Shown here piece after piece: positions 3,056-55,932 of a DNA stretch of 64,000 nucleotides (positions are counted from its first letter, which is position 1; each line of letters opens with the position of its first letter). This stretch comes from Endomychus coccineus. Its lineage: Eukaryota; Arthropoda; Insecta; Coleoptera; Endomychidae. The notes beneath the pieces were generated by a model that was not told where the DNA came from, did not search any database, and worked only from the letters and a program-made list of their open reading frames with translations. Location: contig OY294070.1 in the NCBI GenBank assembly GCA_958510875.1, positions 44,601,299-44,665,298 of the forward strand, read 5' to 3'. Made by a program: the position numbers and the translations under genes.

Positions 3056-3067
3056 CCTATATAAACG
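3056..3067 (+). promoter_or_regulatory. TATA box for the 397-aa zinc-knuckle gene
   Basis: CTATATAAACGG lies about 60-70 bp before the ATG at 3129, and a short TCAACA-containing leader follows. This upstream region is unlike the Fanzor promoters even though the encoded N-terminus is shared. Confidence 0.45.
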
Positions 3068-3128
3068 GAGATCGTGCATATACAAACATCCAGTCGATCA
3101 ACAGCTAAACACCGTTCAACATCACAAT

Positions 3129-8865: not shown

Positions 8866-10031
8866 GCTGCGAAAACTTTTGCAGCAGTGATGACTCACAG
8901 TTACGTGACGTATACGTGACGTAGCACGAGGGCAACGAAAATCGTGAAACGCAACTTTCAGCTGTCGCGAGAAGCTAGCGCTAAGTCTAGACAATCAACG
9001 GGGCTCCACGTACCCCATAGCACCCCCTGCACCCCTATATATATAATATATATATATATTATATATATATTATATATATAACCTCCGCGACGGCCTGCTC
9101 CTTCTTACTACTACGTTGTTCTTACTCTGGTCAAGGAGGTTTATGTTCGCGCGCGTGGAGCTCTCTGATTATATAGTTAATTTGGGGTCAGCTGAGTGAA
9201 TACTCGATTCTCATTGGACTAGAGCCAATTGACGTCACAAAAATCCTAAAATCTACTGATTTCTGACGAAAATCACGGTAGAAGGGGTAAAATTTTGATC
9301 AGATTCAATTCAGAGTTTCGAGAGCGAAGTCGATTGAGGTTAAATTGTACAATATTAAACCCACCCCATTCACAGATTTAGTAATTTCATGATATTCATG
9401 AGACATCTATGGAAGATTTAATACTGTACACGTTGATTGGAAGTTCAAGGGAATTCTACCAGATGGCGTTCATCTGCTTTTTGTAACAAATTGATATAAC
9501 TTTTCGATAGGTGGCGCTCACCAAGTTGTCACATCGGAATTGCATTATATTTCGAAAGATGGCGCTTTTTACATTACCTCGACGGGATCGCATTACATTT
9601 TAATAGGTGGCGCTCTTCACGTTACTCTGACGAAATTGCATTACATTTCGGTAGATGTCTTCGAATACTATTTCCGATCAGAAATTATCGCACTAAGATC
9701 GCTGAATCTGTTTCTACGACGATGCATAGTTTTGAAATTCGCATCTCATAACGACTACGTTAGAGTAATCTTCGATTTTCATATATGGAGGGGATGGTCG
9801 AGCGTATAAAATTTCACAATTTAATTTCTCGAACGAGAATTGCGTGCAGAAATAGGAACAACTGGTACGTTGGCAACTCTATCTTTTCTATCGACGTGTA
9901 ATAAAACTATGTATCGTTGAAGTCGTTAGCCGATAATTTTTGGTCGTTAGTGGACATGTTCGATTTCGTTTCATGTATGCAAAATACGTTCGGAACGAGA
10001 AACGACCGAAACGTTAACGCTCACCAATCGC
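8866..10031 (+). repeat. Conserved repeat A, copy 2 (direct orientation)
   Basis: Near-identical to 1056-2216, with the same TA palindrome (about 9040-9079), CRE (9230-9237) and 48-bp CTCF-like array (9461-9613). Here it runs uninterrupted into the Fanzor 1 promoter. The left end of the Fanzor unit is therefore missing, replaced by repeat A at about position 9840. Confidence 0.85.
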
Positions 10032-10036
10032 CAGCG

Positions 10037-10077
10037 TATAAATAAGGCCGCGGTACACATGTCGATTCAGTTTCAGT
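10037..10077 (+). promoter_or_regulatory. Fanzor 1 core promoter (TATA + TCAGT initiator)
   Basis: TATAAATA at 10037-10044 is followed 30 bp later by the arthropod initiator TCAGT (10067-10071, and again at 10073-10077). The ATG is at 10082, so the 5' leader is very short. The same arrangement precedes the other two Fanzor genes. This indicates RNA polymerase II transcription with a typical arthropod start site. Confidence 0.75.
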
Positions 10078-10081
10078 CGAC

Positions 10082-12064
10082 ATGCCGTGCAAAACATGTG
10101 GTGGATTAGATCACAGTCGCGTTTCTTCGGCCAAATGTGCAAATCGAATATTGAAGCAAAAACATAGATTCAGCACAGTGAATACTTGCACCGAGACGTT
10201 CACGATAAAACGCGGTTTTCGTAAGTTTTGCCGACGTCCAGAGTTACGACAGCGAATCGAGGATGACGTTTTGGAAATTTCTCAACTGACCATCGAAGCA
10301 TCGCTCTACGTCAGTTTTCATTATACGAAATTGTTACATCGGAACGAATTTCCGATCGGACAGTTTTCCATAAGTCACCTACAAGATTTCTACTACCATC
10401 TTCAGGGCAAACGACAAAAAAAAGAACGCGTTGCGTTGGACGAAGAATATTTCGCTATGCGGCCAGACAAAACGTTATTATACAACGGCCGATTACGAAC
10501 ATACCTGATTAAGTCGTGTGTCAAGCAACACGAAACCAGTATGAAAAATTGCATCACGGTCCATTTTTACGATAGACTAGTCCGATATTTCTATGAAAAA
10601 TACAAGGAAGAGTTTGATCGAAAACGCTACGAATGGAAGACGATAGTTTACGACGAATTGTTCGCCTTCGTACCACGTCACGTCGCCCACAGCCGAGAAG
10701 TTGCAGAATTTCTGGAAGATTTTCGTTTCGACTATCACAAGAAATTCATTAATATCGAAAATGACTGGTGGAATTTGGTACCGATCACTTTCGAGTTGGG
10801 ACGATGGTTCGAAGAGAGAAAGTTGAAATCCTTCTCGGCGTTTCCTGTATTTTCGTCTGGTCGAAAACATTTACTTTATAACGCTATGGCTTTGAACGAA
10901 TTATTAAGTAGTGTAAAATTGCTGCCGGACAAAACTACCGCTCCCGTGTTTAGGATGGAAACTCCAAGATATTGGTGGCAATATTTCGATCTATCTCACT
11001 CAGTTTACGGCAAATTCGACAATACAACTATGCACATCGAGCCCCACAAGCAGCGGACGTCTTTCGCCATGAGTTTTTCCACCAACGGGATTGATTGTTC
11101 CATCATGATGAATAGATATGGGCGATCCACGATTCAACAACTGCAGAAGAAGAAGCGAAAGAAGACGAACATAAAACCGGAGACTACAGTGGTTAATTCC
11201 AACTTCACTAAATATTTGGGAATCGATCCGGGGGTCGTTAATTATATCGGCGCGTGCTATATCGATAAGGAAACTCGAACAGAAACCAATTTCGTGTTAA
11301 AATCGGCCACATTCAAGGAACATTTCTGTAAAGAACGTGCTCGACGACATAAACGGAAAAAAATGTCCGGAATCTTTGAAAAACGCCTGCTTGAATATCG
11401 CGAACGTATAAACATAGAGAAAAAATTAATTGTTTCGCCGAAGTGTGGTTCTAATTTTAACTCTCGTGTGGAGTACATTTTATACAGACTGAATTTCTTA
11501 TCGTCCAGTCGCGAAATTTACGCTACGCGGAAATATACGCGCTTGAACTGGGACTCGTACATTTCACGTCGTAAAGCGGAGGATAAGGTGGTAAATCAGT
11601 TATTACCCGCTAAAGATGATGATGATGATGATAATTCCGTGTTGGTTTGTTTTGGAGATGGAACACTGAAAAAAAATTTCAGTTATGGCAGAAATAAAAA
11701 ACCCGCCGTCGAAATGCTCAAACGAGCGTTTCATCGTCGACGCGATAAATGTCACGTTATATGTGTTGATGAATATTTGACCACACAATCTTGTTCGAAA
11801 TGTTTCGATAAAATGCCTTTGCCACCCAAAAACACGACCGTAAATAGAGACGATACGAAGCGACGACGACGACGTCACGATCATAGATTTCAAATTTGCC
11901 GAAAATGTAAAATCGTTTGGAATCGTGACGTCAATGCTGCGCGTAATATCATTTTGGTTGGTCTCGGATTAATCGATTATCGTTGTAAAACGTCAGATGA
12001 ATTTGTTCGTTTGACGGAATTTCAAAATTATGTCTTGCATAATGGTGAAATTCGTATCTCATGA
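10082..12064 (+). CDS. Fanzor 1: TnpB-like RNA-guided nuclease family protein, 660 aa
   Basis: Eukaryotic TnpB homologue. An N-terminal CX2CX4HX7C zinc knuckle (C3, C6, H11, C19) is followed by about 350 residues of helix-rich sequence. A RuvC-type nuclease then carries D382 (in LGIDPG), E564 (in VDEY), a T567-T568 pair, a four-cysteine zinc finger (C571, C574, C606, C609) and the final R615-D616 (NRDVNAARN). The order D, [TS][TS], C4 finger, RD is the published Fanzor signature. Fanzors are known to use a guide RNA overlapping the gene's 3' end to cut DNA. All catalytic residues are present, so the protein could be active. The last codons (GEIRIS) lie inside the terminal inverted repeat. It is about 90% identical by eye to Fanzors 2 and 3. 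Its left transposon end is lost, so this copy is probably immobile. Confidence 0.88.
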   Translation: MPCKTCGGLDHSRVSSAKCANRILKQKHRFSTVNTCTETFTIKRGFRKFCRRPELRQRIEDDVLEISQLTIEASLYVSFHYTKLLHRNEFPIGQFSISHLQDFYYHLQGKRQKKERVALDEEYFAMRPDKTLLYNGRLRTYLIKSCVKQHETSMKNCITVHFYDRLVRYFYEKYKEEFDRKRYEWKTIVYDELFAFVPRHVAHSREVAEFLEDFRFDYHKKFINIENDWWNLVPITFELGRWFEERKLKSFSAFPVFSSGRKHLLYNAMALNELLSSVKLLPDKTTAPVFRMETPRYWWQYFDLSHSVYGKFDNTTMHIEPHKQRTSFAMSFSTNGIDCSIMMNRYGRSTIQQLQKKKRKKTNIKPETTVVNSNFTKYLGIDPGVVNYIGACYIDKETRTETNFVLKSATFKEHFCKERARRHKRKKMSGIFEKRLLEYRERINIEKKLIVSPKCGSNFNSRVEYILYRLNFLSSSREIYATRKYTRLNWDSYISRRKAEDKVVNQLLPAKDDDDDDNSVLVCFGDGTLKKNFSYGRNKKPAVEMLKRAFHRRRDKCHVICVDEYLTTQSCSKCFDKMPLPPKNTTVNRDDTKRRRRRHDHRFQICRKCKIVWNRDVNAARNIILVGLGLIDYRCKTSDEFVRLTEFQNYVLHNGEIRIS

Positions 12065-12087
12065 CGGTCACGTTGGCCGTAAATGGG
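12044..12087 (+). repeat. Right terminal repeat of Fanzor 1 unit (eroded end)
   Basis: GGTGAAATTCGTATCTCATG and the downstream GTCACGTTGGCCGTAAATGGG match the termini of the intact Fanzor 3 element, but the expected TTAA is replaced by ACAG. The Fanzor stop codon lies within it. Confidence 0.7.
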
Positions 12088-13025: not shown

Positions 13026-13102
13026 GCGCGCCCCATTCGATATATTCTAAATCACTTAAACTCATTTACCGCCAACGTGACTGTCACGAGATACGAATTT
13101 CA

Positions 13103-13264: not shown

Positions 13265-13665
13265 ATTTCACCCTTATAAACATTTCGAGCAACTACGTTC
13301 ACTAGCGAATATTTTACAGTTTCAATTTCCGAACGATAATAACGTTCAACAAGGGGAACGACTGATGCGTTGACTACCATCATTCTTTTCAAGCGATGGG
13401 TTATACTTAAAATTCTTAAACGTTGAAATCGTTCGATGAAAATCTCGACCGACAAAGTTTGTTCCTCGTCAAATATTTGCAAAAATAGGAACGACTGGTA
13501 CGTTGGCAACTCTATCTTTTCTATCGACGTGTAATGAAACTATGCATCGTTGAAGTCGTCAGATGATGAATTTTGTTCGGTAGTGGATATGTTCGATTTT
13601 ATTTCGTGCATGCAAAATACGTTCGGAACGAGGAACGCTACGTTAACGCCCACCACTCGCGAGGC

Positions 13666-13708
13666 TATAAATACAGCTGCGACACACACATGTCAATTCA
13701 GTTTCAGT
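13666..13708 (+). promoter_or_regulatory. Fanzor 2 core promoter (TATA + TCAGT initiator)
   Basis: TATAAATA at 13666-13673 and TCAGT at 13698-13702 are 32 bp apart, 11-15 bp before the ATG at 13713. The upstream 130 bp match those of Fanzors 1 and 3. Confidence 0.75.
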
Positions 13709-13712
13709 CGAC

Positions 13713-15686
13713 ATGCCGTGTAAAACATGTGGTGGATTAGACCACAGTCGCACATCTTCGGCCAAATGTGCAAATCGAATATTGAAGCAAAAACATAGAT
13801 TCAGCACGGTAAATACTTGTACCGAGACGTTCACGATAAAACGCGGTTTTCGTAAGTTTTGTCGAGATTCAGAGTTACGACAACGAATCGAAAATGACGT
13901 TTTGGAAATTTCTCAACTAACCATTGAAGCATCGCTCTATGTCAGTTTTCATTATACAAAATTGTTGCATCGTAACGAATTTCCAATTGGACAGTTTTCC
14001 ATCAGTCATCTAAAAGATTTCTACTACCATCTTCAGGGCAAACGACAAAAGAAAGAACGCGTTGCGTTGGACCAAGAATATTTCGCTATGCGGCCAGACA
14101 AAACGTTATTATACGACGGTCGATTACGAACATACCTGATTAATTCGTGTGTCAAGCAACACGAAACCAACATGAAAAATTGTATCACGGTCCATTTTTA
14201 CGATCGACTAGTCCGATATTTCTATGAAAAATACAAGAAAGAGTGTGATCGAAAACGCTACGAATGGAAGATGATAGTTTACGACGAATTGTTCGCTTTC
14301 GTGCCACGTCACGTCGCCCACAGCCGAGAAGTTGCAGAATTTTTAAAAGATTTCCGTTTCGACTATCACAAAAAATTCATCAATATAGAAAATGACTGGT
14401 GGAGTTTGGTACCGATCACTTTCGAATTGGGACGATGGTTCGAAGAGAGAAAGTTGAAATCCTTCTCGGTGTTTCCTGTATTTTCGTCTGGTCGAAAACA
14501 TTTACTTTATAACGCTATGGCTCTGAACGAATTATTGAGTAGTGTAAAATTGCTGCCGGACAAAACTACCGCTCTCGTGTTTAGGATGGAAACTCCAAGA
14601 TATTGGTGGCAATATTTCGATCTATCTCACTCAGTTTACGGCAAATTCGACGACACAACTATGCACATCGAGCCCCACAAGCAGCGGACGTCTTTCGCTA
14701 TGAGTTTTTCCACCAACGGAATCGATTGTTCCCTCATGATGAATAGATATGGGCGATCTACAATTCAACAATCGCAGAAGAAGAAACGAAAGAAGACCAA
14801 CAAACAACCCGAGACTACAGTGGCTAGTTCAAGTTTCACCAAGTATTTAGGAATCGATCCGGGAGTTGTTAATTATATCGGTGCGTGCTATATCGATAAG
14901 AAAACTCGAACAGAAACCAATTTCGTGTTAAAATCGGCCACGTTCAAGGAACATTTCTGTAAAGAACGTACTCGACGACGTAAACGGAAAAAAATGTCCG
15001 GAATCTTTGAAAAACGCCTGCTTGAATATCGCGAAAGTATAAACATAGAGAAAAAATTAATTGTTTCGCCGAAGTGTGGTTCTAATTTTAACTCTCATGT
15101 GGAGTACATTTTATACAGACTGAATTTCTTATCGTCCAGTAGCGAAATTTACGCTACGCGGAAATATACGCACTTGAACTGGGACTCGTACATTTCACGT
15201 CGTAAAGCAGAGGATAAGGTGGTAAATCAGTTATTGCCCGCTAAAGATGATGATGATAATTCCGTGTTGGTTTGTTTTGGAGATGGAACACTGGAGAAAA
15301 ATTTCAGTTATGGCAGAAATAAAAAACCCGCCGTCGAAATGCTCAAACGAGCGTTTCATCGTCGACGCGATAAATGTCAGATTATATGTGTGGATGAGTA
15401 TCTGACTACGCAATCTTGCTCGAAATGTTCCGGTAAAATGCATTTGCCACCCAAAAACACGACCGTAAATAGAGACGATACGAAGCGACGACGATGTCAC
15501 GATCATAGATTTCAAATTTGCCAAAAATGTAAAATCGTTTGGAATCGTGACGTCAATGCTGCGCGTAACATGGTTTTGGTTGGTCTCGGATTAATCGATT
15601 ATCGTTGTAAAACGTCAGATGAATTTGTTCGTTTGACGGAATTTCAAAATTATGTGTTACATAATGGTGAAATTCGTATCTCATGA
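13713..15686 (+). CDS. Fanzor 2: TnpB-like RNA-guided nuclease family protein, 657 aa
   Basis: Near-identical in layout to Fanzor 1, with the N-terminal knuckle C3/C6/H11/C19, D382 in LGIDPG, the DEY glutamate, TTQSC, the C4 zinc finger and the final RD (NRDVNAARN). Against Fanzor 1 it lacks three residues, in the aspartate run near residue 515 and the arginine run near residue 595. The frame is fully open and ATG-started at the same place. The C-terminal GEIRIS and stop codon are encoded by the terminal repeat. An intact frame plus a canonical promoter make it a good candidate for an expressed nuclease. Its transposon ends are eroded, so mobility is doubtful. It is closer to Fanzor 3 than to Fanzor 1. 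Confidence 0.88.
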   Translation: MPCKTCGGLDHSRTSSAKCANRILKQKHRFSTVNTCTETFTIKRGFRKFCRDSELRQRIENDVLEISQLTIEASLYVSFHYTKLLHRNEFPIGQFSISHLKDFYYHLQGKRQKKERVALDQEYFAMRPDKTLLYDGRLRTYLINSCVKQHETNMKNCITVHFYDRLVRYFYEKYKKECDRKRYEWKMIVYDELFAFVPRHVAHSREVAEFLKDFRFDYHKKFINIENDWWSLVPITFELGRWFEERKLKSFSVFPVFSSGRKHLLYNAMALNELLSSVKLLPDKTTALVFRMETPRYWWQYFDLSHSVYGKFDDTTMHIEPHKQRTSFAMSFSTNGIDCSLMMNRYGRSTIQQSQKKKRKKTNKQPETTVASSSFTKYLGIDPGVVNYIGACYIDKKTRTETNFVLKSATFKEHFCKERTRRRKRKKMSGIFEKRLLEYRESINIEKKLIVSPKCGSNFNSHVEYILYRLNFLSSSSEIYATRKYTHLNWDSYISRRKAEDKVVNQLLPAKDDDDNSVLVCFGDGTLEKNFSYGRNKKPAVEMLKRAFHRRRDKCQIICVDEYLTTQSCSKCSGKMHLPPKNTTVNRDDTKRRRCHDHRFQICQKCKIVWNRDVNAARNMVLVGLGLIDYRCKTSDEFVRLTEFQNYVLHNGEIRIS

Positions 15687-15709
15687 CGGTCACGTTGGCA
15701 GTTAATGGA
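15560..15709 (+). ncRNA. Candidate Fanzor guide RNA (fRNA) scaffold region
   Basis: In the TnpB/Fanzor family the guide RNA scaffold covers the 3' end of the gene and the element's right end, and the guide is read from the adjoining flank. Here the last ~110 nt of the Fanzor CDS and the terminal repeat are conserved in all three full copies and in the decayed fragments. This is a prediction by family analogy; no RNA structure was computed. Confidence 0.35.
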
Positions 15710-17152: not shown

Positions 17153-17860
17153 TCATGTGTACAAAAATGGATAGCGTACACAACGCGGAATCTGCGTGAT
17201 GGATATTCTGTTGTTGTTATCGTACGTGCGCCCGAAAGAAGTCAATGTTAATCCCGGAGCACACTCGCAATCGGAAGTGATCGGATAATGGGTATGAACG
17301 TTCATGTGGACGAGGGAACTCGACCCTCCGCTACATACCCCGTCCATTTGTTTGCCGTTGTCATTTATCAAGGCGGGAAAGAGCGAAACGCATTTCCAAA
17401 AAGCATTAGAAACTTGAACGTCCGCATGTAGTAGAGCGAATACCCCCTTGATGGTATTGCATTGCTTTTTCTGGCGAATAGAAGTTCCAGCATTATTATC
17501 GTCGTCGTTTTCGTTCGCTGTATCATGTTCCTCGTTTCTCGGCACGCACAAGCGCGTATCCGAAGAACATTCGTAAAATCCATTATACGCACTGCTACAC
17601 GAGTCGATACAATCTTGATTGTGAGTACAACGTACGGCATTACTAGCACAATCGGCAACGTTCGACTTGTAAACGAATCGTTGTAACGATTCAATTTTTG
17701 TCGTCACATCTACACGTAGAATTTTATTCGTTTCTATTTCTATATTCGCGATGCGTCTATTCATTTCGGATATTCGTGGCAATATTATGAAATTACCGAT
17801 AACGATGACGCCGACGACGACGACGATAATAATGACGATATTAGCGCGAACGAAGATCAT
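17153..17860 (-). CDS. pif-3: PIF-3-like per os infectivity factor, 235 aa
   Basis: A short N-terminus is followed by one hydrophobic anchor (about residues 7-27) and a Cys-rich ectodomain. The Cys pairs around residues 68-105 (CASNAVRCTHNQDCIDSCSS) and later the SDCECAPGLT segment fit PIF-3, a conserved protein of the occlusion-derived virion entry complex in baculoviruses and nudiviruses. The length is close to the usual ~200 aa, with an Asp/Asn-rich insert (residues about 115-125). A TAAG motif lies 11 nt before the ATG, like the late-promoter motif of baculoviruses. It lies head-to-tail with pif-1, 18 nt apart. The frame is intact. Confidence 0.75.
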   Translation of the reverse strand: MIFVRANIVIIIVVVVGVIVIGNFIILPRISEMNRRIANIEIETNKILRVDVTTKIESLQRFVYKSNVADCASNAVRCTHNQDCIDSCSSAYNGFYECSSDTRLCVPRNEEHDTANENDDDNNAGTSIRQKKQCNTIKGVFALLHADVQVSNAFWKCVSLFPALINDNGKQMDGVCSGGSSSLVHMNVHTHYPITSDCECAPGLTLTSFGRTYDNNNRISITQIPRCVRYPFLYT

Positions 17861-26123: not shown

Positions 26124-26347
26124 CGCTTAGCTGAGTCGAATAGGTTCCGTTCGTATCGAACGACGCCTCGATCACGTACGTGATATGTAGAAAGGGAACG
26201 AGAGGGGGACGGGGGTGTGAGATTGTCGGATAACGTCTATCGATACGGACGTTACGAGATTTCCTATTCAGTAGTGTGATGTCGTCGGAAGGAGACAAGT
26301 AGAAATTGAATTCGTTAGATCGTTCACCTGTCGCATATATATATACT
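26124..26347. other. Short intergenic region with TATA run
   Basis: Contains GCATATATATATACT immediately before the ATG at 26348, and a TTAGCTGAG stretch after the upstream stop. No gene is seen. Confidence 0.4.
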
Positions 26348-27538
26348 ATGAATAATAACGATCACGATTATCATCGACAGATATTCTATTATCCGTCGAA
26401 TAAATTCCGTATAGGATCTAAAGAAGAAACGAATTTTTTCAAACATAAATGGATCAACAAGACAGATCGTCAGGGGGCGAAACGAATTTATAACGTATTC
26501 CCTAGCGACGTTTGTCCGTGTGAAATTATCGTAGCGTTCAACGTAATCGACGCTATCTCCTTCACGGACGACCGATTGGCCGGTAGTAACATTTCGACCG
26601 ACGACGGAACGATAAGCAGGTTATCGTTCACCAACGAATACCAATTGAAAACGCAATTTTTCTGGAAGAACATCGATCCCACCGTGGTAACGTTCAATAA
26701 ACATTTCGTTCGTACCTTCCACGAACGTTCGTTACCGCAGCATCAGCAACCGTCATCTTCCGCATCCCCGCACGACGACGTCGCCATCAACGGAATTTTG
26801 TCCAAATGTCGATTCAACACGGCGGCGATAACGTCGTCGTCGTCGTCGTCATCGTCAAAATATAATGATTATAATACGAAACGGAACGCCCCTCTTATCG
26901 CCAAACAGTCGAAACATATCAATAAACATTGCAATCGCGATCGAAACAATAGGAATAATATCGAAATTATTCGAGAACTTGCACGAGCATTAGGAAAAGA
27001 TATCGAATACCTTTCAACCGGCGTCAATAACAATAACAACAACAACAACAACAAGACGAATACCGAAACACACCACCCCACGATCGCCTATGACGACGTC
27101 GTCCGGAGAGCACTTTTAAGATATTCACAAATCGATTATTTTCTACAATTCAACGTAATCCTAACCGACCCACGAATGTACATATCGAAGATGTCGAAGA
27201 ATAAAAAATTCAAATTGCGAACGAAAATGTTACACGACGAACTTGTCGGTGACTGTATATCGTTTTGGGGTCTAACGATGGAAATTGAGGATAATCACGA
27301 CGACGACAACGACGACGATGACAACGGCGACGACAACGACGACCAGAATCGTACCGTGATCCACGATTATGGACAGATGTTACCGATCAACGACAATCCG
27401 TCACACGAATGGTACAGATCGAGCTCGCAATGTAAACACGATAAGGGTTTCACCTATCGCTACGAACAGAAACGATGCAGCGACGAAATGATTCACATAT
27501 CGAAATATTGTATCGTATGCGGTCGTCGTGTATCGTAA
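26348..27538 (+). CDS. 396-aa protein with C-terminal zinc-ribbon-like cysteines, unknown
   Basis: ATG 26348 is chosen; the frame opens at an upstream TTG. The N-terminal domain (about 1-140; YYPSNKFRIG, VFPSDVCPCEIIVAFNVIDA, FFWKNIDPTVV) is followed by Ser-, Asn- and Asp-rich linkers encoded by trinucleotide runs. Between them lies a helical segment (about 200-235; IEIIRELARALGKDIEYL). The C-terminus has SSQCKHDKGF, KRCSD and YCIVCGRR, a possible metal-binding ribbon. Function unknown. It is in the same orientation as the preceding genes. Confidence 0.65.
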   Translation: MNNNDHDYHRQIFYYPSNKFRIGSKEETNFFKHKWINKTDRQGAKRIYNVFPSDVCPCEIIVAFNVIDAISFTDDRLAGSNISTDDGTISRLSFTNEYQLKTQFFWKNIDPTVVTFNKHFVRTFHERSLPQHQQPSSSASPHDDVAINGILSKCRFNTAAITSSSSSSSSKYNDYNTKRNAPLIAKQSKHINKHCNRDRNNRNNIEIIRELARALGKDIEYLSTGVNNNNNNNNNKTNTETHHPTIAYDDVVRRALLRYSQIDYFLQFNVILTDPRMYISKMSKNKKFKLRTKMLHDELVGDCISFWGLTMEIEDNHDDDNDDDDNGDDNDDQNRTVIHDYGQMLPINDNPSHEWYRSSSQCKHDKGFTYRYEQKRCSDEMIHISKYCIVCGRRVS

Positions 27539-34029: not shown

Positions 34030-34071
34030 TTCGTATGACAAACGAGCGGAATAAATTGGGGATATATATAT

Positions 34072-34104
<33 letters not shown>

Positions 34105-34149
34105 TGAAACGACGACGGACGGAACGGTTCGATACGTACACGTTCGCAC

Positions 34150-35871
34150 TTACAATAATATATCGTCGTCGATCATCAAGGCTACGAGACCGTCCATTTT
34201 CAACGAAGCGGGTAGGAAATTATCGACCGGACCGAGTACGGTACGTTTATCGGCAATTTTCAAGATTACGTTCAAATCGATATCGACCGTGACGTTTTGT
34301 AGAATTTGCAGCATCTGATTTTCCGTTTGCCACACTTTCGCTATCGTATTATTACTACGAATAAACTTTTGGGCGTATTTCAAGCTTTCGGTTAACGTTT
34401 CGCTGGCACGCTGAGGCTTGTTTTTCATGATAGATAGAATCTCGTCACTCCCCTTCGCTCCGGAATCTATTATGGCTCTGCACACGTCGTCGTCGACGTT
34501 ATCGGTAACGAAAAAAGAATTCGAATCCGCGTCCGCGTCCGCGTCGTCGTCGTCGTCGTCACCGTTGGAACGTTCGAAAGCCATATCGTTGGCGTATTGC
34601 ATAAAATCGTAGGCCGTCATACTGTCGTACAATTGGACTAAACACAACAGTACGTGATTGAAAATATCGACAGTCTTACTTTTCGTCCGTTTCCTTTTGT
34701 TACCCTTCGTATCGACGTCGTCACCATCGTCGTCGTCGTCGTCGTCATAGCAAACGTTAGCGAGATATACGTATTTGAACACGCGACCCCATTTCGGATG
34801 GCGTTCGAACGACGTAATATTCTTTCCGATCTTATCGTGTAAACGGAGAGCGTGCGTCTGCGAAAATTCTATTCTCGTTTTGCCAAAGTAAACGTACATG
34901 TTAAGGTGACAATTTATACGCAACAACACTTCCAACGAAACGGCCTCGCTTACGATAACCGTTACGGTGGTCGTATCACCGTCGTTGTCCATGTTCATCG
35001 ATTTGTATCGTCCCGAGTGTACGCGCACACATCGTCCGTCGACCAGCACTATACTATCGGAGGTGTGTATGCTATAATAACAAATGACGGGATCTCGCTT
35101 GAATATTAATACGACGCGAAACCTGTTCAGATCGTCGACGAGTCCGGGAAAAATTTCGTATGGAATCCCGATTTGATCGATCGTCATGTCGGACGTCGCC
35201 GGTAGCACGGTACACCGAAAAGTAAAATGATATCGACCGGGCGAAGCTTCCTGCTTCACGAAACTTCTACGTCCTTGCGTTTGCTCTCTCACCGACTTGT
35301 TGAGCAAATCGCAATTCTTCACGGTCTTCTCCAATTTCAGCATGTCCGCAGCGTCGATGTGATCGATCGGTGTTTTTGACGTTTCAATTTTATAGATACG
35401 ATTGACGAGAGTGAAATACGGCTCGGTCAGTTGTTTCCATTGAGGCGTCACCCAGATGCGTCGCTTGCCGTAACGATATCGACACTTTATAATGGCCGGA
35501 CCCAGCGATTTGATGAACGTCAATAGTTTGTAGAGACGCTTCTCGTTCCGTCGAAATACATTTCGGCAATTCGAACAACTGTTTGCGTGCGATTTCATCC
35601 GCTTACGGGCGTTATTCACCGAACTGTTGCTGTTATTTAACGATCGCAAAATTTTCGCCAACGCCCGAAATTCGTCCCATTCTAACAGGTTCCGGTCGGG
35701 ACCCGTTTTCAACACACGCGTATCGTTCGTTTCGTCAATTTCCATGTTGTTCTCCAATTCGATCACGTTGTCCACGATTTCGTACGAATCCAAAGGTTGT
35801 CTATTTCTTCGACGTAGCGGCGTCTTACCCGGTGTTGACGATAACGACGAGGACGACGGTAGTAACGACAT
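34150..35871 (-). CDS. 573-aa protein, unknown
   Basis: ATG 35871 is used; the frame opens at an upstream TTG. The N-terminus is Ser-rich and polar. A small cysteine pair (SCSNCRN) lies near residue 100. Residues about 120-400 look globular (KRRIWVTPQWKQLTEPYF; YHFTFRCTVLP; LVDGRCVRVHSGRYKSMNM). Two Asp-rich runs precede a helical C-terminus. It lies 120 nt upstream of the integrase in the same direction, so co-expression is possible. No family is recognised. Confidence 0.68.
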   Translation of the reverse strand: MSLLPSSSSLSSTPGKTPLRRRNRQPLDSYEIVDNVIELENNMEIDETNDTRVLKTGPDRNLLEWDEFRALAKILRSLNNSNSSVNNARKRMKSHANSCSNCRNVFRRNEKRLYKLLTFIKSLGPAIIKCRYRYGKRRIWVTPQWKQLTEPYFTLVNRIYKIETSKTPIDHIDAADMLKLEKTVKNCDLLNKSVREQTQGRRSFVKQEASPGRYHFTFRCTVLPATSDMTIDQIGIPYEIFPGLVDDLNRFRVVLIFKRDPVICYYSIHTSDSIVLVDGRCVRVHSGRYKSMNMDNDGDTTTVTVIVSEAVSLEVLLRINCHLNMYVYFGKTRIEFSQTHALRLHDKIGKNITSFERHPKWGRVFKYVYLANVCYDDDDDDDGDDVDTKGNKRKRTKSKTVDIFNHVLLCLVQLYDSMTAYDFMQYANDMAFERSNGDDDDDDADADADSNSFFVTDNVDDDVCRAIIDSGAKGSDEILSIMKNKPQRASETLTESLKYAQKFIRSNNTIAKVWQTENQMLQILQNVTVDIDLNVILKIADKRTVLGPVDNFLPASLKMDGLVALMIDDDILL

Positions 35872-36069
35872 CGTCACGTCGAGCGTTACGGGGGAAAAAA
35901 AAAGTATCAATCCGGAAACACGTCGTTACAGAGTGAAATACTCGATTGAATAATAAAAAAAAAACTTAAACTTCAATATCGTTTATTACAATTCATAATT
36001 TGTGTGGTCGTGAGTGGGGGTGGGGGCGTGGAGGTGGCCGAGGAGGCGGTTCGCACAGATGAACGCGTG
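35872..36069. other. Intergenic gap with poly(A) signals
   Basis: A short gap between two minus-strand genes with AATAAAAAAAAAAC (about 35950) and a G-rich GGGGGTGGGGGCG stretch (about 36017-36030). No gene is seen. Confidence 0.4.
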
Positions 36070-38269: not shown

Positions 38270-38832
38270 AACAATATATCGAATGTCTACCATAGATGTC
38301 TCACATAGTTCACGGAAAATACTAAATCTGTGGATGGGGTGGGTTTAATATTGTACAATCTAACCTCAATCGACTTCGCTCTCAGAACTCTGAATTGAAT
38401 CTGATCAAAATTTTACCCCTTCTACCGTGATTTTCGTCAGAAATCAGTAGAATTTAGGATTTTCGTGACGTCAAACGGCTCTAGTCCAATGAGAATCGAG
38501 TATTCACTCAGCTGACCCCAAATTAACTATATAATCAGAGAGCTCCACGCGCGCGAACATAAACCTCCTTGACCAGAGTAAGAACAACGTAGTAGTAAGA
38601 AGGAGCAGGCCGTCGCGGAGGTTATATATATAATATATATATAATATATATATATTATATATATAGGGGTGCAGGGGGTGCTATGGGGTACGTGGAGCCC
38701 CGTTAACTGTTTAAACTTGGCGTTAGCTTCTCGCGAGAACTGAAAGTTGCGTTCCACAATTTTCGTTGCCCCTGTGATACGTCACGTCTACGTCACGTAA
38801 CTGTGAGTCATCACCGCTGCAAAAGTTTTCGC
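38270..38832 (-). repeat. Conserved repeat A, copy 3 (inverted orientation)
   Basis: Reverse complement of the left-arm A repeats, with CRE TGACGTCA (38466-38473), the CCGTCGCGGAGG block, the TA palindrome (about 38622-38665), the GCAGGGGGTGCTATGGGG block and CACGTCTACGTCACG. It abuts hr array 4, just as the left copies abut hr arrays, but mirrored. Confidence 0.85.
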
Positions 38833-40640: not shown

Positions 40641-40852
40641 CCAGATAATATATTCAATTTTATTTTATACACGAGATCACTGAGATCAGTGCTTGCGGGA
40701 TGGAAGAAATGGAAGACAACATTTTATCTATCTTCCATAGATTTAGTATTTTTATCGACTCCATAGTGTGTCCATAGTAAGTTGTCACACTATGAACGTA
40801 GAACGAAAATCAGTTTTGCACGAATGCGAATCATTGTAAATAACAAACAAGA

Positions 40853-41521: not shown

Positions 41522-41620
41522 ATCACAGTCGGCGTTTCTTCAGTGAGAACGTGACACGAAGCCACCAGTGCGATTCGACACGTCGGATAGATATTACGAT
41601 AGTTGGAACATAAAGCCGAT

Positions 41621-42838
41621 ATGCAGGTATCGCTGCCGTCATCGTCCACGGAGAACTACCAGAACGAACATTACAGTTATGCTACGGAACGTGTTTTTCG
41701 TCCACTACGAGAAGTGCCGATCGATATTCGAGAAAAAATCATGCGGGTGCTACATAAGCTGGGAACTTTCGTGCTTTCGATTTATGTGGATCGCGATAGA
41801 CCATTATGTCATGATAACATGCGATTTTATTTGAATATGAGCGATGCGTATATTTGTGCGTGGGAAATGTGTCTCTTTCTAACTAATTTCGAGTCGTCGC
41901 GACAATCATCGATATCGTCTTCGACAGCAGCAATGAAGTATTCATCAACCGAAGTTGCATCTAACATGGTCGACTACATCAATTTCATAAGGCGTATTTT
42001 TTTCCGAAGTTTGTTGTATATCGATGCGTTTTCCAATCGATCGACTATAATATACGCTCTGATAATCCGAGCGTATAACGACGACGATTCGGCCTTACAC
42101 GATTTGTTGCAATGTGATTCGGACATTGATATCGTTGTCATGTGCTTTGAACATATGTTTATGGAACCCACATTTTACAAGATTCAGTTGCGGTCGTTAC
42201 TTGATAATCTGAGAGAATTAAAAATAACAAATTACTTGACGGAATTATGTCATGTGCGTAAATTGATGATGATATTCGTTCGTTTTTGTTCGGCTGATCA
42301 CACGAAAATTAAATTCGATAACAATCCCATCTATCGAAAAATTGCGGCTGTCGCCGTTATATTTTTGTTGGCCACTCATAATAATCTGCAGTCGAACGAA
42401 GAAGATGTTAATTTTTTGGAGAACTTAAAAGTACACTGCTATCGCAATAATTTCTGTTCGATTTTCATAGCAATTTCATTACTATATCCTTTCATCGCCG
42501 CCCCACTGTATTATGGAATCGCTGTCAACAATCGTACACAACACATTCGCGAGAGAATTGGAACGACTGATCTTTTCGAATTTTTCGTACACCTGACGAA
42601 ATCACCGAGAACGTTGAAAATGTTGGCATTACGAACTGTTTTCTCACATCAGCATCTGATTTGTATTTTTTTCAAATACTATGTGGATCGGTTGGCTCTG
42701 GATCCGGAAATTCATCGTGCCCACGATCGCTATAACATATTGAAATTCGATTTGGTCGGCAGATTGATGGATGAGATCGAAAAAACGTTCGTCCGGAATC
42801 GTAGTCGGCCATCGACACAATTGAATTTGAAAGTGTGA
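41621..42838 (+). CDS. Paralogous protein family, right-arm copy, 405 aa
   Basis: Full-length homologue of the 439-aa minus-strand protein at 5769-7088, in inverted orientation. The two match in start (MQVSLPSSSTE), middle (YINFIRR.FF.SLLYID, NYLTEL.HVR.L.M.F, VAVIFLLATHN.LQSNEEDVNFLE) and end (VRNRSRPSTQLNLKV). The present copy lacks about 30 residues in Ser-rich and C-terminal stretches. It has captured a Fanzor-type promoter and leader upstream. Helical and soluble; function unknown. Confidence 0.75.
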   Translation: MQVSLPSSSTENYQNEHYSYATERVFRPLREVPIDIREKIMRVLHKLGTFVLSIYVDRDRPLCHDNMRFYLNMSDAYICAWEMCLFLTNFESSRQSSISSSTAAMKYSSTEVASNMVDYINFIRRIFFRSLLYIDAFSNRSTIIYALIIRAYNDDDSALHDLLQCDSDIDIVVMCFEHMFMEPTFYKIQLRSLLDNLRELKITNYLTELCHVRKLMMIFVRFCSADHTKIKFDNNPIYRKIAAVAVIFLLATHNNLQSNEEDVNFLENLKVHCYRNNFCSIFIAISLLYPFIAAPLYYGIAVNNRTQHIRERIGTTDLFEFFVHLTKSPRTLKMLALRTVFSHQHLICIFFKYYVDRLALDPEIHRAHDRYNILKFDLVGRLMDEIEKTFVRNRSRPSTQLNLKV

Positions 42839-43170: not shown

Positions 43171-43250
43171 TAACCCATTTATCCCAACGTGACCGTCATG
43201 AGATACGAATTTCACCCTTATGCAAGACATAATTTTGAAATTCCGTCAGA
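43171..43250 (-). pseudogene. Fanzor terminal repeat and last codons, relic
   Basis: TAACCCATTTATCCCAACGT, followed by the conserved GACCGTCATGAGATACGAAT and the last Fanzor codons in reverse. The expected TTAA reads TATAA. It directly joins repeat A copy 4. Confidence 0.65.
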
Positions 43251-43261
43251 TGCGATCCCGT

Positions 43262-43965
43262 TGAGGTAATGTAAAAAGTGCCATCTTTCGAAATATAATG
43301 CAATTCCGATGTGACAACTTGGTGAGCGCCACCTATCGAAGAGTTATATCAATTTGGTACAAAAAGCAGATGGACGCCATCTGGTAGAGTTCCCTTGAAC
43401 TTCAAATCAACGTGTACAGTATCAAATCTACCATAGATGTCCTATGAATATCATGAAATTACTACATCTGTGGATGGGGTGGGTTTAATATTGTACAATC
43501 TAACCTCAATCGACTTGGCTATCGGAACTCTGAATCGAATATGATCAAAATTTTACCCCTTCTACCGTGATTTTCGCCAGAAATCAGTAGATTTTAGGAT
43601 TTTTGTGACGTCAATTGGCTCTAGTCCAATGAGAATCGAGTATTCACTCAGCTGACCCTAAATTAACTATATAATCAGCAAGCTTCTCGCCCGCGATCCT
43701 AAACCTCCTTGACCAGAGTAAGAACAACGTAGTAGTAAGAAGGAGCAGGCCGTCGCGGAGGTTATATATATAATATATATATATTATATATATAGGGGTG
43801 CAGGGGGTGCTATGGGGGTACGTGGAGCCTCCTTGACTGTCTAGACTTAGCGCTAGCTTCTCGCGAGAGCTGGATGTTGCGTTCCACAATTTTCGTTGCC
43901 CCCGTGATACGTCACGTCTACGTCACGTGATAACGAGTCATAGCTGCAAATGTTTTTGCAGCTCG
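43262..43965 (-). repeat. Conserved repeat A, copy 4 (inverted orientation)
   Basis: Reverse complement of about 1056-1768, including three CTCF-like cores spaced 48 bp (43278, 43326, 43374), CRE (43606-43613), the CCGTCGCGGAGG block and the TA palindrome (about 43764-43796). It abuts hr array 5. Confidence 0.85.
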
Positions 43966-46430
43966 AAGAAATCCGCCGATGGATTTCGTTCCAACAAATT
44001 TTACTCGCGACGAAACTGTTTCTCGACAGAGCTAGTGCGCATGACGAGGAACTTGTAAGTTTGGAGATTCGTTCGACGAGAGATTCTAGGTGGACAAAGT
44101 TTGTTCATCAAAAAATATTTTACGATTCCATTTCTCGAACGAGATTCACGTTCCACGTTTTTACAGCTCGAAGAAATCCAACCGGTGAAATTTCGTTTCA
44201 ACAAATTTCATTCGAGACAAAACTGTTTCTCGATGATGCTAGTACGCATGACGAGGAACTTATAAGTTTGGAGATTCGTTCGACGAGAAATTCTAGGCGG
44301 ACAACGTTGGTTCATCAGAAAATATTTTACGATTTCATTTCTCGAACGAGATTCACGTTCGAAGATTTTACAGCTCGAAGAAATCCACCGGTGAGATTTC
44401 GTTTCATAAATTTCATTCGGGACAAAACTGTTTCTCGATGATGCTAGTACGCATGACGAGGAACTTATAAGTTTGGAGATTCGTTCGACGAGAAATTCTA
44501 GGCGGACAACGTTGGTTCATCAGAAAATATTTTACGATTTCATTTCTCGAACGAGATTCACGTTCGAAGATTTTACAGCTCGAAGAAATCCACCGGTGAG
44601 ATTTCGTTTCATAAATTTCATTCGAGACAAAACTGTTTCTCGATGATGCTAGTACGCATGACGAGGAACATATAAGTTTGAAAATTTGTTCGACGAGAGA
44701 TTCTAGCGGACAAAGTTTGTTCATCAGAAAATATTTTACGATTTCATTTCTCGAACGAGATTCACGTTCAAAGATTTTGCAGCTCGAAGAAATCCACCGG
44801 TGAGATTTCGTTTCAGCAAATTTCATTCGAGACAAAACTGTTTCTCGATGAACGAGAGTTTCGTTCAACGTATTTGTAACTCGAAGAAATTCACCGGTGA
44901 GATTTCGTTTCAACAAATTTCATATGAGACAAAACTATTTCTCGATGAACGAGAGTTTCGTTCAACGTATTTGTAGCTCGAAGAAATCCACCGGTGAGAT
45001 TTCGTTTCAACAAATTTCATATGAGACAAAACTATTTCTCGATGAACGAGAGTTTCGTTCAACGTATTTGTAGCTCGAAGAAATCCACCGGTGAGATTTC
45101 GTTTCAACAAATTTCATATGAGACAAAACTATTTCTCGATGAACGAGAGTTTCGTTCAACGTATTTGTAGCTCGAAGAAATCCACCGGTGAGATTTCGTT
45201 TCAACAAATTTCATCCGAGACAAAACTATTTCTCGATGAACGAGAGTTTCGTTCAAAGTATTTGTAGCTCGAAAAAATCCACCAGTGGAATTTCGTTTCA
45301 ACAATTATTCGTTCGACGAGAGATTTTAGACGGACAAAGTTTATTCATCAGAAAATATTTTACGATTTCATTTCTCGAACGAGATTCACGTTCAAAGTTT
45401 TTGTAGCTCGAAGAAATCCAACCGGTGAAATTTCGTTTCAACAATCAATCGTTCGACGAGAAATTCTAGGCGGACAAAGTTTGTTCATCAGAAAATATTT
45501 AACGATTTCATTTCGAGAACGAGAGTTTCGTTCAAAGTTTTTGTAGCTCGAAGAAATCCACCGGTGAGATTTCGTTTCAACAGATTTCACTCGAGACAAA
45601 ACTGTTTCATTCCTTGAACGAGAATTACGTTCAAAGTTTTGTAGCTCGAAGAAATCCACCGGTGGAATTTCATTTCAACAATCAATCGTTCGACGAGAGA
45701 TTCTATGCGGACAAAGTTCGTTCATCAGAAAATATTTAACGATTTCATTTCGAGAACGAGAGTTTCGTTCAAAGTTTTTGTAGCTCGAAGAAATCCACCG
45801 GTGAGATTTCGTTTCAACAGATTTCACTCGAGACAAAACTGTTTCATTCCTTGAACGAGAATTACGTTCAAAGTTTTGTAGCTCGAAGAAATCCACCGGT
45901 GGAATTTCATTTCAACAATCAATCGTTCGACGAGAGATTCTATGCGGACAAAGTTTGTTCATCAGGAAATATTTAACGATTTCATTTCGAGAACGAGAGT
46001 TTCGTTCAAAGTTTTTGTAGCTCGAAGAAATCCACCGGTGAGATTTCGTTTCAACAGATTTCACTCGAGACAAAACTGTTTCATTCCTTGAACGAGAATT
46101 ACGTTCAAAGTTTTGTAGCTCGAAGAAATCCACCGGTGGAATTTCATTTCAACAGTCAATCGTTCGACGAGAGATTCTAGGCGGACAAAGTTTGTTCATC
46201 AAAAAATATTTTACGATTTCATTTCTCGAACGAGATTCACGTTCAAAGATTTTGCAGCTCGAAGAAATCCACCGGTGAGATTTTGTTTCAACAAATTTCA
46301 TTCGAGATAAAACTGTTTCTCGATGACACTAGTACGCATGACGAGGAACTTATAAGTTTGGAGATTCGTTCGACAAGAGATTCTAGGCTGACAGAGTTTG
46401 TTCATCAGAAAATATTTTACGATTTCATTT
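43966..46430. repeat. hr-like tandem array 5, with 97-bp and 237-bp units
   Basis: The longest array. A 97-bp unit recurs at 44910, 45007 and 45104, and a 237-bp unit at 45438, 45675 and 45912. Same motif set and orientation as array 4, and the order of unit types is also the same, so arrays 4 and 5 are duplicates of one another. Confidence 0.87.
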
Positions 46431-46593
46431 CTCGCACGATCGTTGGCGTTATGCGCGATAAACGTGGAGGGGCGGTATGAGATCATCTTCGTATTATATA
46501 ATCGCAATCGTACCAATATTTAGATACCAGTATTCCGATCTCGGTCGTTCCAACGTCAGCCATTCGTTCGAGATGTAGTGCGGTATTCGAACT

Positions 46594-53118: not shown

Positions 53119-53132
53119 TAATTTCAAATTAA

Positions 53133-53181
53133 CCCATTAACTGCCAACGTGACCGTCATGAGATACGAATTTCACCCTTAT
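53133..53181 (-). repeat. Terminal inverted repeat, Fanzor-3' side
   Basis: Reads CCCATTAACTGCCAACGTGA and onward. It contains the Fanzor 3 stop codon and its last codons, so the gene terminates inside the transposon end. Confidence 0.85.
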
Positions 53182-55129
53182 GTAACACATAAATTTGAAA
53201 TTCCGTCAAACGAACAAATTCATCTGACGTTTTACAACGATAATCGATTAATCCGAGACCAACCAAAATGATATTACGCGCAGCATTGACGTCACGATTC
53301 CAAACGATTTTACATTTTTGGCAAATTTGAAATCTATGATCGTGACATCGTCGTCGCTTCGTATCGTCTCTATTTACGGTCGTGTTTTTGGGTGGCAAAT
53401 GCATTTTACCGGAACATTTCGAGCAAGATTGCGTAGTCAGATACTCATCCACACATATAATCTGACATTTATCGCGTCGACGATGAAACGCTCGTTTGAG
53501 CATTTCGACGGCGGGTTTTTTATTTCTGCCATAACTGAAATTTTTCTCCAGTGTTCCATCTCCAAAACAAACCAACACGGAATTATCATCATCATCTTTA
53601 GCGGGCAATAACTGATTTACCACCTTATCCTCTGCTTTACGACGTGAAATGTACGAGTCCCAGTTCAAGCGCGTATATTTCCGCGTAGCGTAAATTTCGC
53701 TACTGGACGATAAGAAATTCAGTCTGTATAAAATGTACTCCACATGAGAGTTAAAATTAGAACCACACTTCGGCGAAACAATTAATTTTTTCTCTATGTT
53801 TATACTTTCGCGATATTCAAGCAGGCGTTTTTCAAAGATTCCGGCCATTTTTTTCCGTTTACGTCGTCGAGTACGTTCTTTACAGAAATGTTCCTTGAAC
53901 GTGGCCGATTTTAACACGAAATTGGTTTCTGTTCGAGTTTTCTTATCGATATAGCACGCACCGATATAATTAACAACTCCCGGATCGATTCCTAAATACT
54001 TGGTGAAACTTGAACTAGCCACTGTAGTCTCGGGTTGTTTGTTGGTCTTCTTTCGTTTCTTCTTCTGCGATTGTTGAATTGTAGATCGCTCATATCTATT
54101 CATCATGATGGAACAATCGATTCCGTTGGTGGAAAAACTCATAGCGAAAGACGTCCGCTGCTTGTGGGGCTCGATGTGCATAGTTGTGTCGTCGAATTTG
54201 CCGTAAACTGAGTGAGATAGATCGAAATATTGCCACCAATATCTTGGAGTTTCCATCCTAAACACGAGAGCGGTAGTTTTGTCCGGCAGCAATTTTACAC
54301 TACTCAATAATTCGTTCAAAGCCATAGCGTTATAAAGTAAATGTTTTCGACCAGACGAAAATACAGGAAACGCCGAGAAGGATTTCAACTTTCTCTCTTC
54401 GAACCATCGTCCCAATTCGAAAGTGATCGGTACCAAACTCCACCAGTCATTTTCTATATTGATGAATTTTTTGTGATAGTCGAAACGGAAATCTTTTAAA
54501 AATTCTGCAACTTCTCGGCTGTGGGCGACGTGACGTGGCACGAAAGCGAACAATTCGTCGTAAACTATCGTCTTCCATTCGTAGCGTTTTCGAACACACT
54601 CTTCCTTATATTTTTCATAGAAATATCGGACGAGTCGATCGTAAAAATGGACCGTGATACAATTTTTCATATTGGTTTCGTGTTGCTTGACACACGAATT
54701 AATCAAGTATGTTCGTAATCGGCCGTCGTATAATAACGTTTTGTCTGGCCGCATAGCGAAATATTCTTCGTCCAACGCAACGCGTTCTTTCCTCTGTCGT
54801 TTGCCCTGGAGATGGTAATAGAAATCTTGTAGGTGACTGATGGAAAACTGTCCGATCGGAAATTCGTTACGATGTAACAATTTCGTATAATGAAAACTGA
54901 CGTAGAGCGATGCTTCGATGGTCAGTTGAGAAATTTCCAAAACGTCATCCTCGATTCGCTGTCGTAACTCTGGACGTCGGCAAAACTTACGAAAACCGCG
55001 TTTTATCGTGAACGTTTCGGTGCAAGTATTCACTGTGCTGAATCTATGTTTTTGCTTCAATATTCGATTTGCACATTTGGCCGAAGAAACGCGACTGTGA
55101 TCTAATCCACCACATGTTTTGCACGGCAT
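53156..55129 (-). CDS. Fanzor 3: TnpB-like RNA-guided nuclease family protein, 657 aa
   Basis: Same architecture as Fanzors 1 and 2: knuckle C3/C6/H11/C19, RuvC D382 (LGIDPG), the glutamate of VDEY, TTQSC, the four-cysteine finger and RD in NRDVNAARN. The frame is completely open. Its promoter has TATAAATA (reverse of 55167-55174) and the TCAGT initiator. Because both TIRs and both TTAA sites survive, this is the youngest-looking and best candidate for an active nuclease with a functional guide-RNA locus. The guide would be expected to come from DNA beyond 53133, here the host transposon at 52228-53118. Activity is inferred. Confidence 0.9.
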   Translation of the reverse strand: MPCKTCGGLDHSRVSSAKCANRILKQKHRFSTVNTCTETFTIKRGFRKFCRRPELRQRIEDDVLEISQLTIEASLYVSFHYTKLLHRNEFPIGQFSISHLQDFYYHLQGKRQRKERVALDEEYFAMRPDKTLLYDGRLRTYLINSCVKQHETNMKNCITVHFYDRLVRYFYEKYKEECVRKRYEWKTIVYDELFAFVPRHVAHSREVAEFLKDFRFDYHKKFINIENDWWSLVPITFELGRWFEERKLKSFSAFPVFSSGRKHLLYNAMALNELLSSVKLLPDKTTALVFRMETPRYWWQYFDLSHSVYGKFDDTTMHIEPHKQRTSFAMSFSTNGIDCSIMMNRYERSTIQQSQKKKRKKTNKQPETTVASSSFTKYLGIDPGVVNYIGACYIDKKTRTETNFVLKSATFKEHFCKERTRRRKRKKMAGIFEKRLLEYRESINIEKKLIVSPKCGSNFNSHVEYILYRLNFLSSSSEIYATRKYTRLNWDSYISRRKAEDKVVNQLLPAKDDDDNSVLVCFGDGTLEKNFSYGRNKKPAVEMLKRAFHRRRDKCQIICVDEYLTTQSCSKCSGKMHLPPKNTTVNRDDTKRRRCHDHRFQICQKCKIVWNRDVNAARNIILVGLGLIDYRCKTSDEFVRLTEFQIYVLHKGEIRIS

Positions 55130-55134
55130 GTCGA

Positions 55135-55175
55135 CTGAAACTGAATCGACATGTGTACCGCGGCCTTATTTATAC
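55135..55175 (-). promoter_or_regulatory. Fanzor 3 core promoter
   Basis: Reverse-strand TATAAATA (55167-55174) and TCAGT initiator copies (about 55136-55146) lie immediately before the ATG at 55129, identical in layout to the other two copies. Confidence 0.75.
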
Positions 55176-55566
55176 GCTGGCGATTGGTGTGCGTTAACGT
55201 TTCGGTCGTTTCTCGTTCCGAACGTATTTTACATGCACAAAATGGAATCGAACATATCCACTACCGAACAAAATTCATCATCTGACGACTTCAACGATGC
55301 ATAATTACATTACACGTCGATAGAAAAGATAGAGTTGCCAACGGACCAGTCGTTCCTATTTCTACAAATATTTTATGAGGAACAAACTTTGTCGGTCGAG
55401 CTTTTCATCGAACGATTTCAACGTTTAGGAATTTTTCGTATAACCCATCGCTTGGAGAGAATGATGGTCGTCAACGCATCAGTCGTTCCCCTTGTTGAAC
55501 GTTATAATCGTTCGGAAATTGAAACTGTAAAATATTCGCTAGTGAACGTATTTGTTCGAAATGTTT

Positions 55567-55615
55567 ATAAGGGTGAAATTCGTATCTCATGACGGTCACG
55601 TTGGCTGTTAATGGG
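55567..55615 (+). repeat. Terminal inverted repeat, Fanzor-5' side
   Basis: Ends GTTGGCTGTTAATGGG next to TTAA (55616-55619) and is the inverse of 53133-53181 with one mismatch. Confidence 0.85.
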
Positions 55616-55774
55616 TTAAGTTCCCTGGAAATAATCAATTATCAAAATATAGGACACATGCAAATACTGAATATCGAAATCGACCAATCTCCGTTTCATC
55701 ATGAGTATATTGAATCATCACCTACACAATTGAAACTAATAAACTTGAATGAACTGCAACTCCTTATACATCAA

Positions 55775-55932
55775 TTAACCCATTTACGGCCAACGTGACC
55801 GTCATGAGATACGAATTTTACCCTTACACGGCACATCATTTTGAAATGCCACTAGACGAACAAATTCAAATGGCGTTTTGCAACGATATTCGATTAACTC
55901 CAGACAAACCCAAGTTACGGGAATCTCGTTGG
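55775..55932 (-). pseudogene. Diverged Fanzor C-terminal fossil with TTAA end
   Basis: TTAA (55775-55778) then CCCATTTACGGCCAACGTGA. On the minus strand the frame reads LIEYRCKTPFEFVRLVAFQN and ends GKIRIS before the stop, clearly homologous to the Fanzor C-terminus but diverged. It indicates an older wave of the same element. Confidence 0.75.

Follow-up and report, generated by a model that had tools for sequence, protein, structure and literature searches.

The locus studied here raises two questions: what moves a transposon whose only gene encodes a Fanzor protein, and what the Fanzor itself contributes to the spread of its carrier. It lies in a window of 64,000 nucleotides (C5:44601299–44665298, contig OY294070.1) of the 906-Mb, 129-contig genome of Endomychus coccineus; L numbers below denote loci fetched from this genome. 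The Fanzor unit spans 53133–55615 (2,483 bp). The preliminary description, made from the window's letters, gave it TTAA on both sides and 49-bp terminal inverted repeats (TIRs), and both were confirmed (Table 1). The TIR sequence set for comparison with other TIRs is CCCATTAACNGCC; its 5′ terminus is of the CCC type and reads CCCATT. Because the Fanzor stop codon is situated 23 bp inside the left end, the left TIR overlaps the end of the gene. An ungapped scan of the window with 46 nt of the TIR, allowing at most 16 mismatches, returned 10 sites, compared with 0 in 20 single-base shuffles. As had also been described, Fanzor is the unit's only gene: its ORF, with the PF07282 match listed in Table 1, is the sole one of at least 250 aa and fills most of the unit.

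Table 1 Features of the Fanzor unit, its copies and its surroundings (window positions unless a contig is named).
Feature	Position	Strand	Remarks
Left TTAA	53129..53132	.	
Left TIR (CCCATTAACTGCC...)	53133..53181	+	Fanzor 3′ side; overlaps ORF end; 48/49 versus right TIR
Right TIR	55567..55615	-	49 bp, 48/49 identical to left TIR
Right TTAA	55616..55619	.	
Second left end of same family, TTAA-flanked, remnant	55775..55910	+	Matches unit 1–136, 83% over 137 nt
Fanzor1 ORF	53156..55129	-	657 aa; PF07282 E=8.2e-10; SpuFz1 chain 8gkh_P 8.3e-05
Predicted reRNA (omega RNA) scaffold	53129..53234	-	Three stems; stem 3 = TIR plus part of TTAA
Putative guide segment	53115..53129	-	Outside element, flank bases 4–18; inferred from native-site offset
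Fanzor copy 1	9845..12087	+	94.7%; left end at 12087 abuts CTGT, no TTAA
Fanzor copy 2	13265..15708/15709	+	96.4%; left end at 15708/15709 abuts ATAG(T), no TTAA
Site A block	C5, C30, C67, C128 (L001–L007)		5.5 kb, seven times including the window's own
PIF3 gene	17159..17860	-	PF05006 1e-16
LEF-5-like ORF, weak	26306..27538	+	PF11792 0.0029, below cut-off
LEF-9-like ORF (RNA polymerase Rpb1 domain 2)	34150..35910	-	PF00623 3.8e-05, 24.4 bits versus cut-off 25.3

The Fanzor ORF showed weak but significant similarity to SpuFz1, a Fanzor1 of solved structure, over residues 443–588. The Fanzor1 motif D-X(125,275)-[TS][TS]-X-X-C4-X(5,50)-RD was found, and the alignment displays D382, TTQSC, the zinc-finger cysteines and NRD. 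By this motif and by similarity to the solved structure, the protein can be assigned to the Fanzor1 class. The relatives found were four proteins: two unnamed (46–50%) and a pair from the beetle Hypothenemus hampei (33–36%). A profile search with alignment A1 returned the same four as the single-sequence search. Scans of viral contigs with three queries (the ORF at 17879–19201, the LEF-9-like ORF and the Fanzor) retrieved no relative, and neither did the genome-contig search. An AlphaFold model built from alignment A1 was unusable (mean pLDDT 36). A full-length ORF (657–659 aa) is present in 27 of the 30 fetched loci, the exceptions being L007, L024 and L026, a share biased upwards by drawing these loci from the best-matching scored copies. 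These 27 loci and the three window copies yielded 19 distinct coding sequences, among which dN/dS was 0.13–0.37 where dS exceeded 0.03; the protein is therefore kept by purifying selection.

The DNA around the element can be read, from its gene content, as integrated Naldaviricetes-like virus DNA in an insect genome. Judged by PIF and LEF core genes, the surroundings are of the Naldaviricetes type: besides PIF3 in the window, P74 (1.8e-15) and PIF2 (1e-12) lie within 10 kb to its left (L033). Relatives of the LEF-9-like ORF were found only in seven unnamed contigs (51–56%), so the virus lineage may be an undescribed one. The virus genes span 15932–38174 of the window and the 10 kb to the left in L033. 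Amid them, on the minus strand at 32014–34149, is a 711-aa ORF that combines an H2C2 zinc finger with a weakly matched rve integrase core. The virus block is flanked by two copies, 64% identical and in opposite orientation, of one protein of no known kind (5769–7106, minus; 41603–42838, plus). AT-rich sequence fills the window's final 8 kb, where a retroelement protease was weakly matched.

The element has multiplied widely. At least 40 long Fanzor copies are present in the 906-Mb genome (the best 40 of 1,748 candidates were scored), and a search with the left end only gave 1,081 candidates, of which 40 were scored. The site A block, flanks included, is 99.9–100% identical over 5,551 bp in all seven places (the window's included). 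Copies 2 and 3 also lie ~40 kb apart at C5:56.77–56.81 Mb and on C67. Recent multiplication of a large virus-derived block is suggested. Two-ended copies outside sites A and B are mostly not clean, combining different left flanks with one right flank: L013, L018 and L024 have one right flank in common, and L014, L021–L023 and L025 another, a tandem repeat, while their left flanks differ. Copy 1 joins other DNA at unit position 2238. For copy 2, the preliminary description had removed an interruption of ~168 bp and obtained a length of ~2481 bp, close to that of the unit. This is doubtful. The TIR-like end in question, at 13061 and separated from copy 2 by a 162-bp gap, has 8 mismatches in 46 and reads ACTTAAA/CTC, which resembles TTAA/CCC without being identical to it; together with its flank and the 'interruption' it recurs in L021–L023, away from copy-2 Fanzor DNA, and may thus be the end of another repeat. 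Much of the spread might be passive, integrated virus DNA being duplicated and recombined and its broken ends joined at short matches. The near-identity of the site A copies over their flanks, the common right flanks with differing left flanks, and one flank common to 19 of 20 further fetched copies all fit such a process, which we nevertheless find doubtful in view of the left junctions: end joining would be expected to produce neither the fixed three-base offset described below nor motif positions (Y at −1, K at 1) that have no match to the element end.

We then compared the bases that abut the element ends. The preliminary description had proposed to look for copies with flanking TTAA, and these exist: TTAA stands on each side of the complete element at site A (seven loci, the window's own included) and at site B (four loci), whose AT-rich flanks are unrelated to those of A. 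However, among the 36 distinct termini of the window and L001–L054, only 12 carry TTAA (four of them from sites A and B), followed by ATAA (4), GTAA (3), TTAC, TCAA, TAAA and ATAG (2 each) and nine others once each; 13 further termini are one base away from TTAA. This is far above the frequency of TTAA in the window (0.32%), yet not the rule. Copies lacking TTAA at the boundary, which the same description had named as evidence against itself, include copies 1 and 2 at their left ends (Table 1). All 20 further left ends fetched, of 25, abut CTAA (TTAG read outward); site C accounts for 19 of them and a neighbouring site for the other. By our own reading, five of seven right ends have a TTAA flank.

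TTAA combined with a 5′-CCC terminus had been taken as the mark of a piggyBac-type non-autonomous unit. In its plain form, this reading has a transposase supplied in trans act on TTAA/CCC ends and insert the element at TTAA, the odd junctions arising from later decay and recombination. Part of it stands: the unit is a Fanzor-only TIR element, shares TTAA on both sides at A and B, the CCCATT end and a similar length range with piggyBac non-autonomous elements, and has the excess of TTAA and near-TTAA termini just described. Available passages of PMC12732532 place CCCATT among six TIR motifs of beetle piggyBacs; in a few of these elements the target departs from TTAA. Other parts did not hold. 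TTAA is not general and gives way to CTAA at two further sites (20 copies), the TIR is longer than in piggyBac elements and forms a hairpin, the left junctions carry non-native bases rather than the pattern of a duplication, and a Pfam scan of 36 distinct ORFs found no piggyBac transposase domain of type PF13843. Among the titles and abstract beginnings listed from the literature, at most 20 per search, no Fanzor element was assigned to piggyBac; both words occur in Bao and Jurka 2013 and in PMC12324416, where the accessible Fanzor passage is unrelated. We take TTAA plus CCC as a lead to piggyBac, not as a test passed; the piggyBac reading is partly supported, and its plain form appears rather unlikely to us. 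Sola3 is another TTAA user. Kolobok also uses TTAA and has 5′-RR ends, according to a partial text of PMC9587614; it was rejected because the present element ends in CC.

Read outward, the termini suggest a broader target. TTAN accounts for 19 of the 36 (TTAA; ATAA = TTAT; GTAA = TTAC) and for both CTAA sites. Five Fanzor1 families of insect viruses have been described with 4-bp TTAN target site duplications and 13-bp TIRs, their superfamily being left unassigned (Bao and Jurka 2013, PMC3627910). These 'TTAN' elements are the nearest kind so far described. As far as the accessible descriptions of the ascovirus and baculovirus elements go (SFav-1, HVav-1 and others), they resemble the unit in having Fanzor1 as sole gene, TIRs, a setting in insect dsDNA virus DNA, a TTAN-type flank read outward, and a predicted three-stem reRNA that includes TIR and target bases; the unit differs by its 49-bp rather than 13-bp TIRs and its high copy number in a large genome. 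The element may be of this same kind, moved by an unassigned transposase, with TTAA as one case of TTAN. Most left ends do show an invariant TTA with a native base after it, and since the GTAA, ATAA and CTAA flanks read TTAN outward, we give this possibility considerable weight, if somewhat short of an even chance. On the other side, the native paralogues mostly lack the TTA at bases 1–3 that a TTAN duplication requires (1 of 14), and the proteins of Bao and Jurka were not retrieved in our protein searches.

To examine what the element replaced, we called native any paralogue of the flank, 100 bp or longer, that lies uninterrupted in the window or the loci, with the flank from its fifth base on as query. 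Native matches were found for 14 distinct left ends and only two right ends. These paralogues are ~95% identical and are not true pre-insertion alleles. Agreement between interrupted and native sequence at bases 1 to 4 was 4, 7, 11 and 14 of 14, and ~96% beyond base 12; a stricter choice (highest identity, at least 88%) covered 13 of 23 left ends and gave 3, 7, 10 and 13 of 13. At left junctions, flank bases 1–3 are thus usually non-native, and native sequence resumes at base 4. The three bases are TTA at 8 of the 14 ends, ATA at 3, ACA at 2 and ATT at 1, whereas the native sites read TTAA in none of 14. Bases copied by a true duplication should agree with the native site, so most left junctions speak against plain duplication, and the junction data as a whole speak against a strict TTAA mechanism. 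In L026 and L027, both among the 14, all four bases are native, which is what plain duplication would give. The same holds for L044, which was left out of the count because the script had not typed it. Matches shorter than 100 bp were also left out. Among them is the 44–46-bp native match of L028/L029, with TTAA in place of the GTAA of the interrupted copies. L067 seems to hold a native version of site C, but a deletion between AACTA repeats would account for it just as well, and it too was not counted. As to the Tc1/mariner target TA, base 2 is native in 7 of 14 and base 3 in 11 of 14, against ~96% further out, which speaks against a TA duplication, although A and B are compatible with TA or TTAA.

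The native sites themselves have a pattern. At positions −1, 1, 2 and 3 they carry Y in 13, K in 12, Y in 13 and A in 10 of 14, that is, YKYA. The relative entropy of this four-base junction window sums to 2.66, compared with a mean of 0.74 (sd 0.29, maximum 1.78) in 108 other windows; similarly, YNYR occurs in 9 of 13 natives, compared with a mean of 1.67 and a maximum of 5 at other offsets. As a hint, the natural insertion junctions may indicate a motif that the Fanzor recognises, since YKYA stands where a target-adjacent motif (TAM) would lie. In IS200/IS605 TnpB elements, the guide starts at the element end, and the element side lacks the target-adjacent motif. The element might likewise insert without duplication, joining 3′ of a TAM-like motif and carrying in the bases at its own end, in most cases TTA. 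The TTAA/TTAA pattern of A and B would then be coincidental, TTA happening to precede the element's own A and an A happening to follow its TTA. Non-native bases 1–3 with native sequence from base 4, the YKYA-like native motif and the measured TAMs of Fanzor1 proteins (TTAAN for GtFz1 and CATA for SpuFz1, in the accessible part of PMC10432273) would all agree with this. The right-side flanks fit poorly, however, being TTAA at 5 of 7 rather than the KYA mix of the left natives (with only two right natives), both clean sites have TTAA on both sides, and the unit differs from IS200/IS605 TnpB elements in its long TIRs, the lack of TnpA and its duplication-like sites A and B. We therefore keep insertion in the IS200/IS605 manner only as a rival, and an improbable one.

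A guide RNA is predicted at the Fanzor end. Taken on the Fanzor strand, the element's terminal 106 nt are predicted to adopt the three-stem structure of Table 1, with a folding energy of −34.1 kcal/mol (z −5.31) that none of 200 shuffles equalled. Folded outward, 110 nt of the right end gave a less stable structure (−21.5 kcal/mol) in which stem 3 is retained and stems 1 and 2 are missing. In our own reading of the predictions, stems 1 and 2 or similar folds are present in most left-type copies. Compensatory changes exist, for example in stem 1 of L026; covariation was not above shuffles, with 4 double-change pairs compared with a mean of 1.6 and a maximum of 5, and the fraction paired (0.932) was not in excess of the shuffle maximum (0.934), after 2 of 24 rows with a broken TIR had been dropped. 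Rfam and tRNA scans gave no match. The predicted layout resembles that of insect-virus Fanzor1 elements, for which the accessible text of Yoon 2023 (PMC10711439) gives a predicted three-stem reRNA whose scaffold includes TIR and target site duplication, the RNA extending ~15 nt beyond. The putative guide, flank bases 4–18, finds an exact 15-nt match in 10 of 13 native sites; about half would be expected at ~95% identity, and the match is not clearly above what general identity predicts.

Beyond what was observed directly (the element, its TIRs, TTAA/TTAA at two sites, many copies and purifying selection on the ORF), we consider it probable that the unit is a non-autonomous TIR element with Fanzor1 as its sole gene, carried by an endogenous Naldaviricetes-like insect virus, and that its Fanzor end encodes a guide RNA. 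Under this reading, the reRNA scaffold would be made up of the terminal part of the Fanzor ORF, the TIR and the flank bases next to it; the guide would be the ~15 flank bases that follow. An enzyme supplied in trans would insert the element into short AT-rich targets. The Fanzor ribonucleoprotein could then cut uninterrupted copies of the same site that still bear the YKYA-like target-adjacent motif, and repair might copy the element in; the element itself would be spared, as its end has G where the motif favours C or T. More tentatively, and with rather less than an even chance of being right, we propose that the junctions record this motif, the element ending 3′ of YKYA-like sites in repeated virus genes, with GGG-TTA replacing the motif and the guide matching uninterrupted paralogues.

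If so, an RNA-guided nuclease would be spreading by homing among the members of virus-derived sequence families in an insect genome. The 'TTAA target duplication', perhaps also the TTAN of related elements, would then in part have been left by the target motif and the guide-RNA scaffold, not by a piggyBac transposase. This bears on how Fanzor1 nucleases help, or gain from, the transposons that carry them, and the unit would add a case to the idea that Fanzor elements are spread by dsDNA viruses of insects. Because near-identical copies under selection, interrupted sites and uninterrupted sites coexist in one genome, both the homing idea and the target motif are directly testable.

The SpuFz1 (Spu-1) elements of Spizellomyces offer a further comparison. 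Like the unit, they combine a Fanzor1 with inverted repeats, many copies, a flank-derived guide and no transposase found; the protein similarity is weak, and the CATA motif was measured for SpuFz1, whereas that of the unit is inferred. Left ends without an adjoining Fanzor gene occur at window 43171–43248 and in L028 and L045; they keep the sequence of stems 2 and 3 and resemble the 'ghost' loci of SpuFz1. Tandem repeat arrays with units of 97, 139, 206 and 237 bp (window 1–1057, 7666–8879, 38789–40669 and 43938–46439) lie between gene blocks, like viral homologous regions, and several Fanzor copies adjoin them. Finally, a different ORF at window 3030–4319 (plus strand) has an N-terminal cysteine motif in common with the Fanzor (40% over 60 aa); the DNA upstream of it (2028–2216) matches that upstream of the Fanzor, and in L013, L035 and L036 a Fanzor left end is joined to this ORF, each time at a different point.
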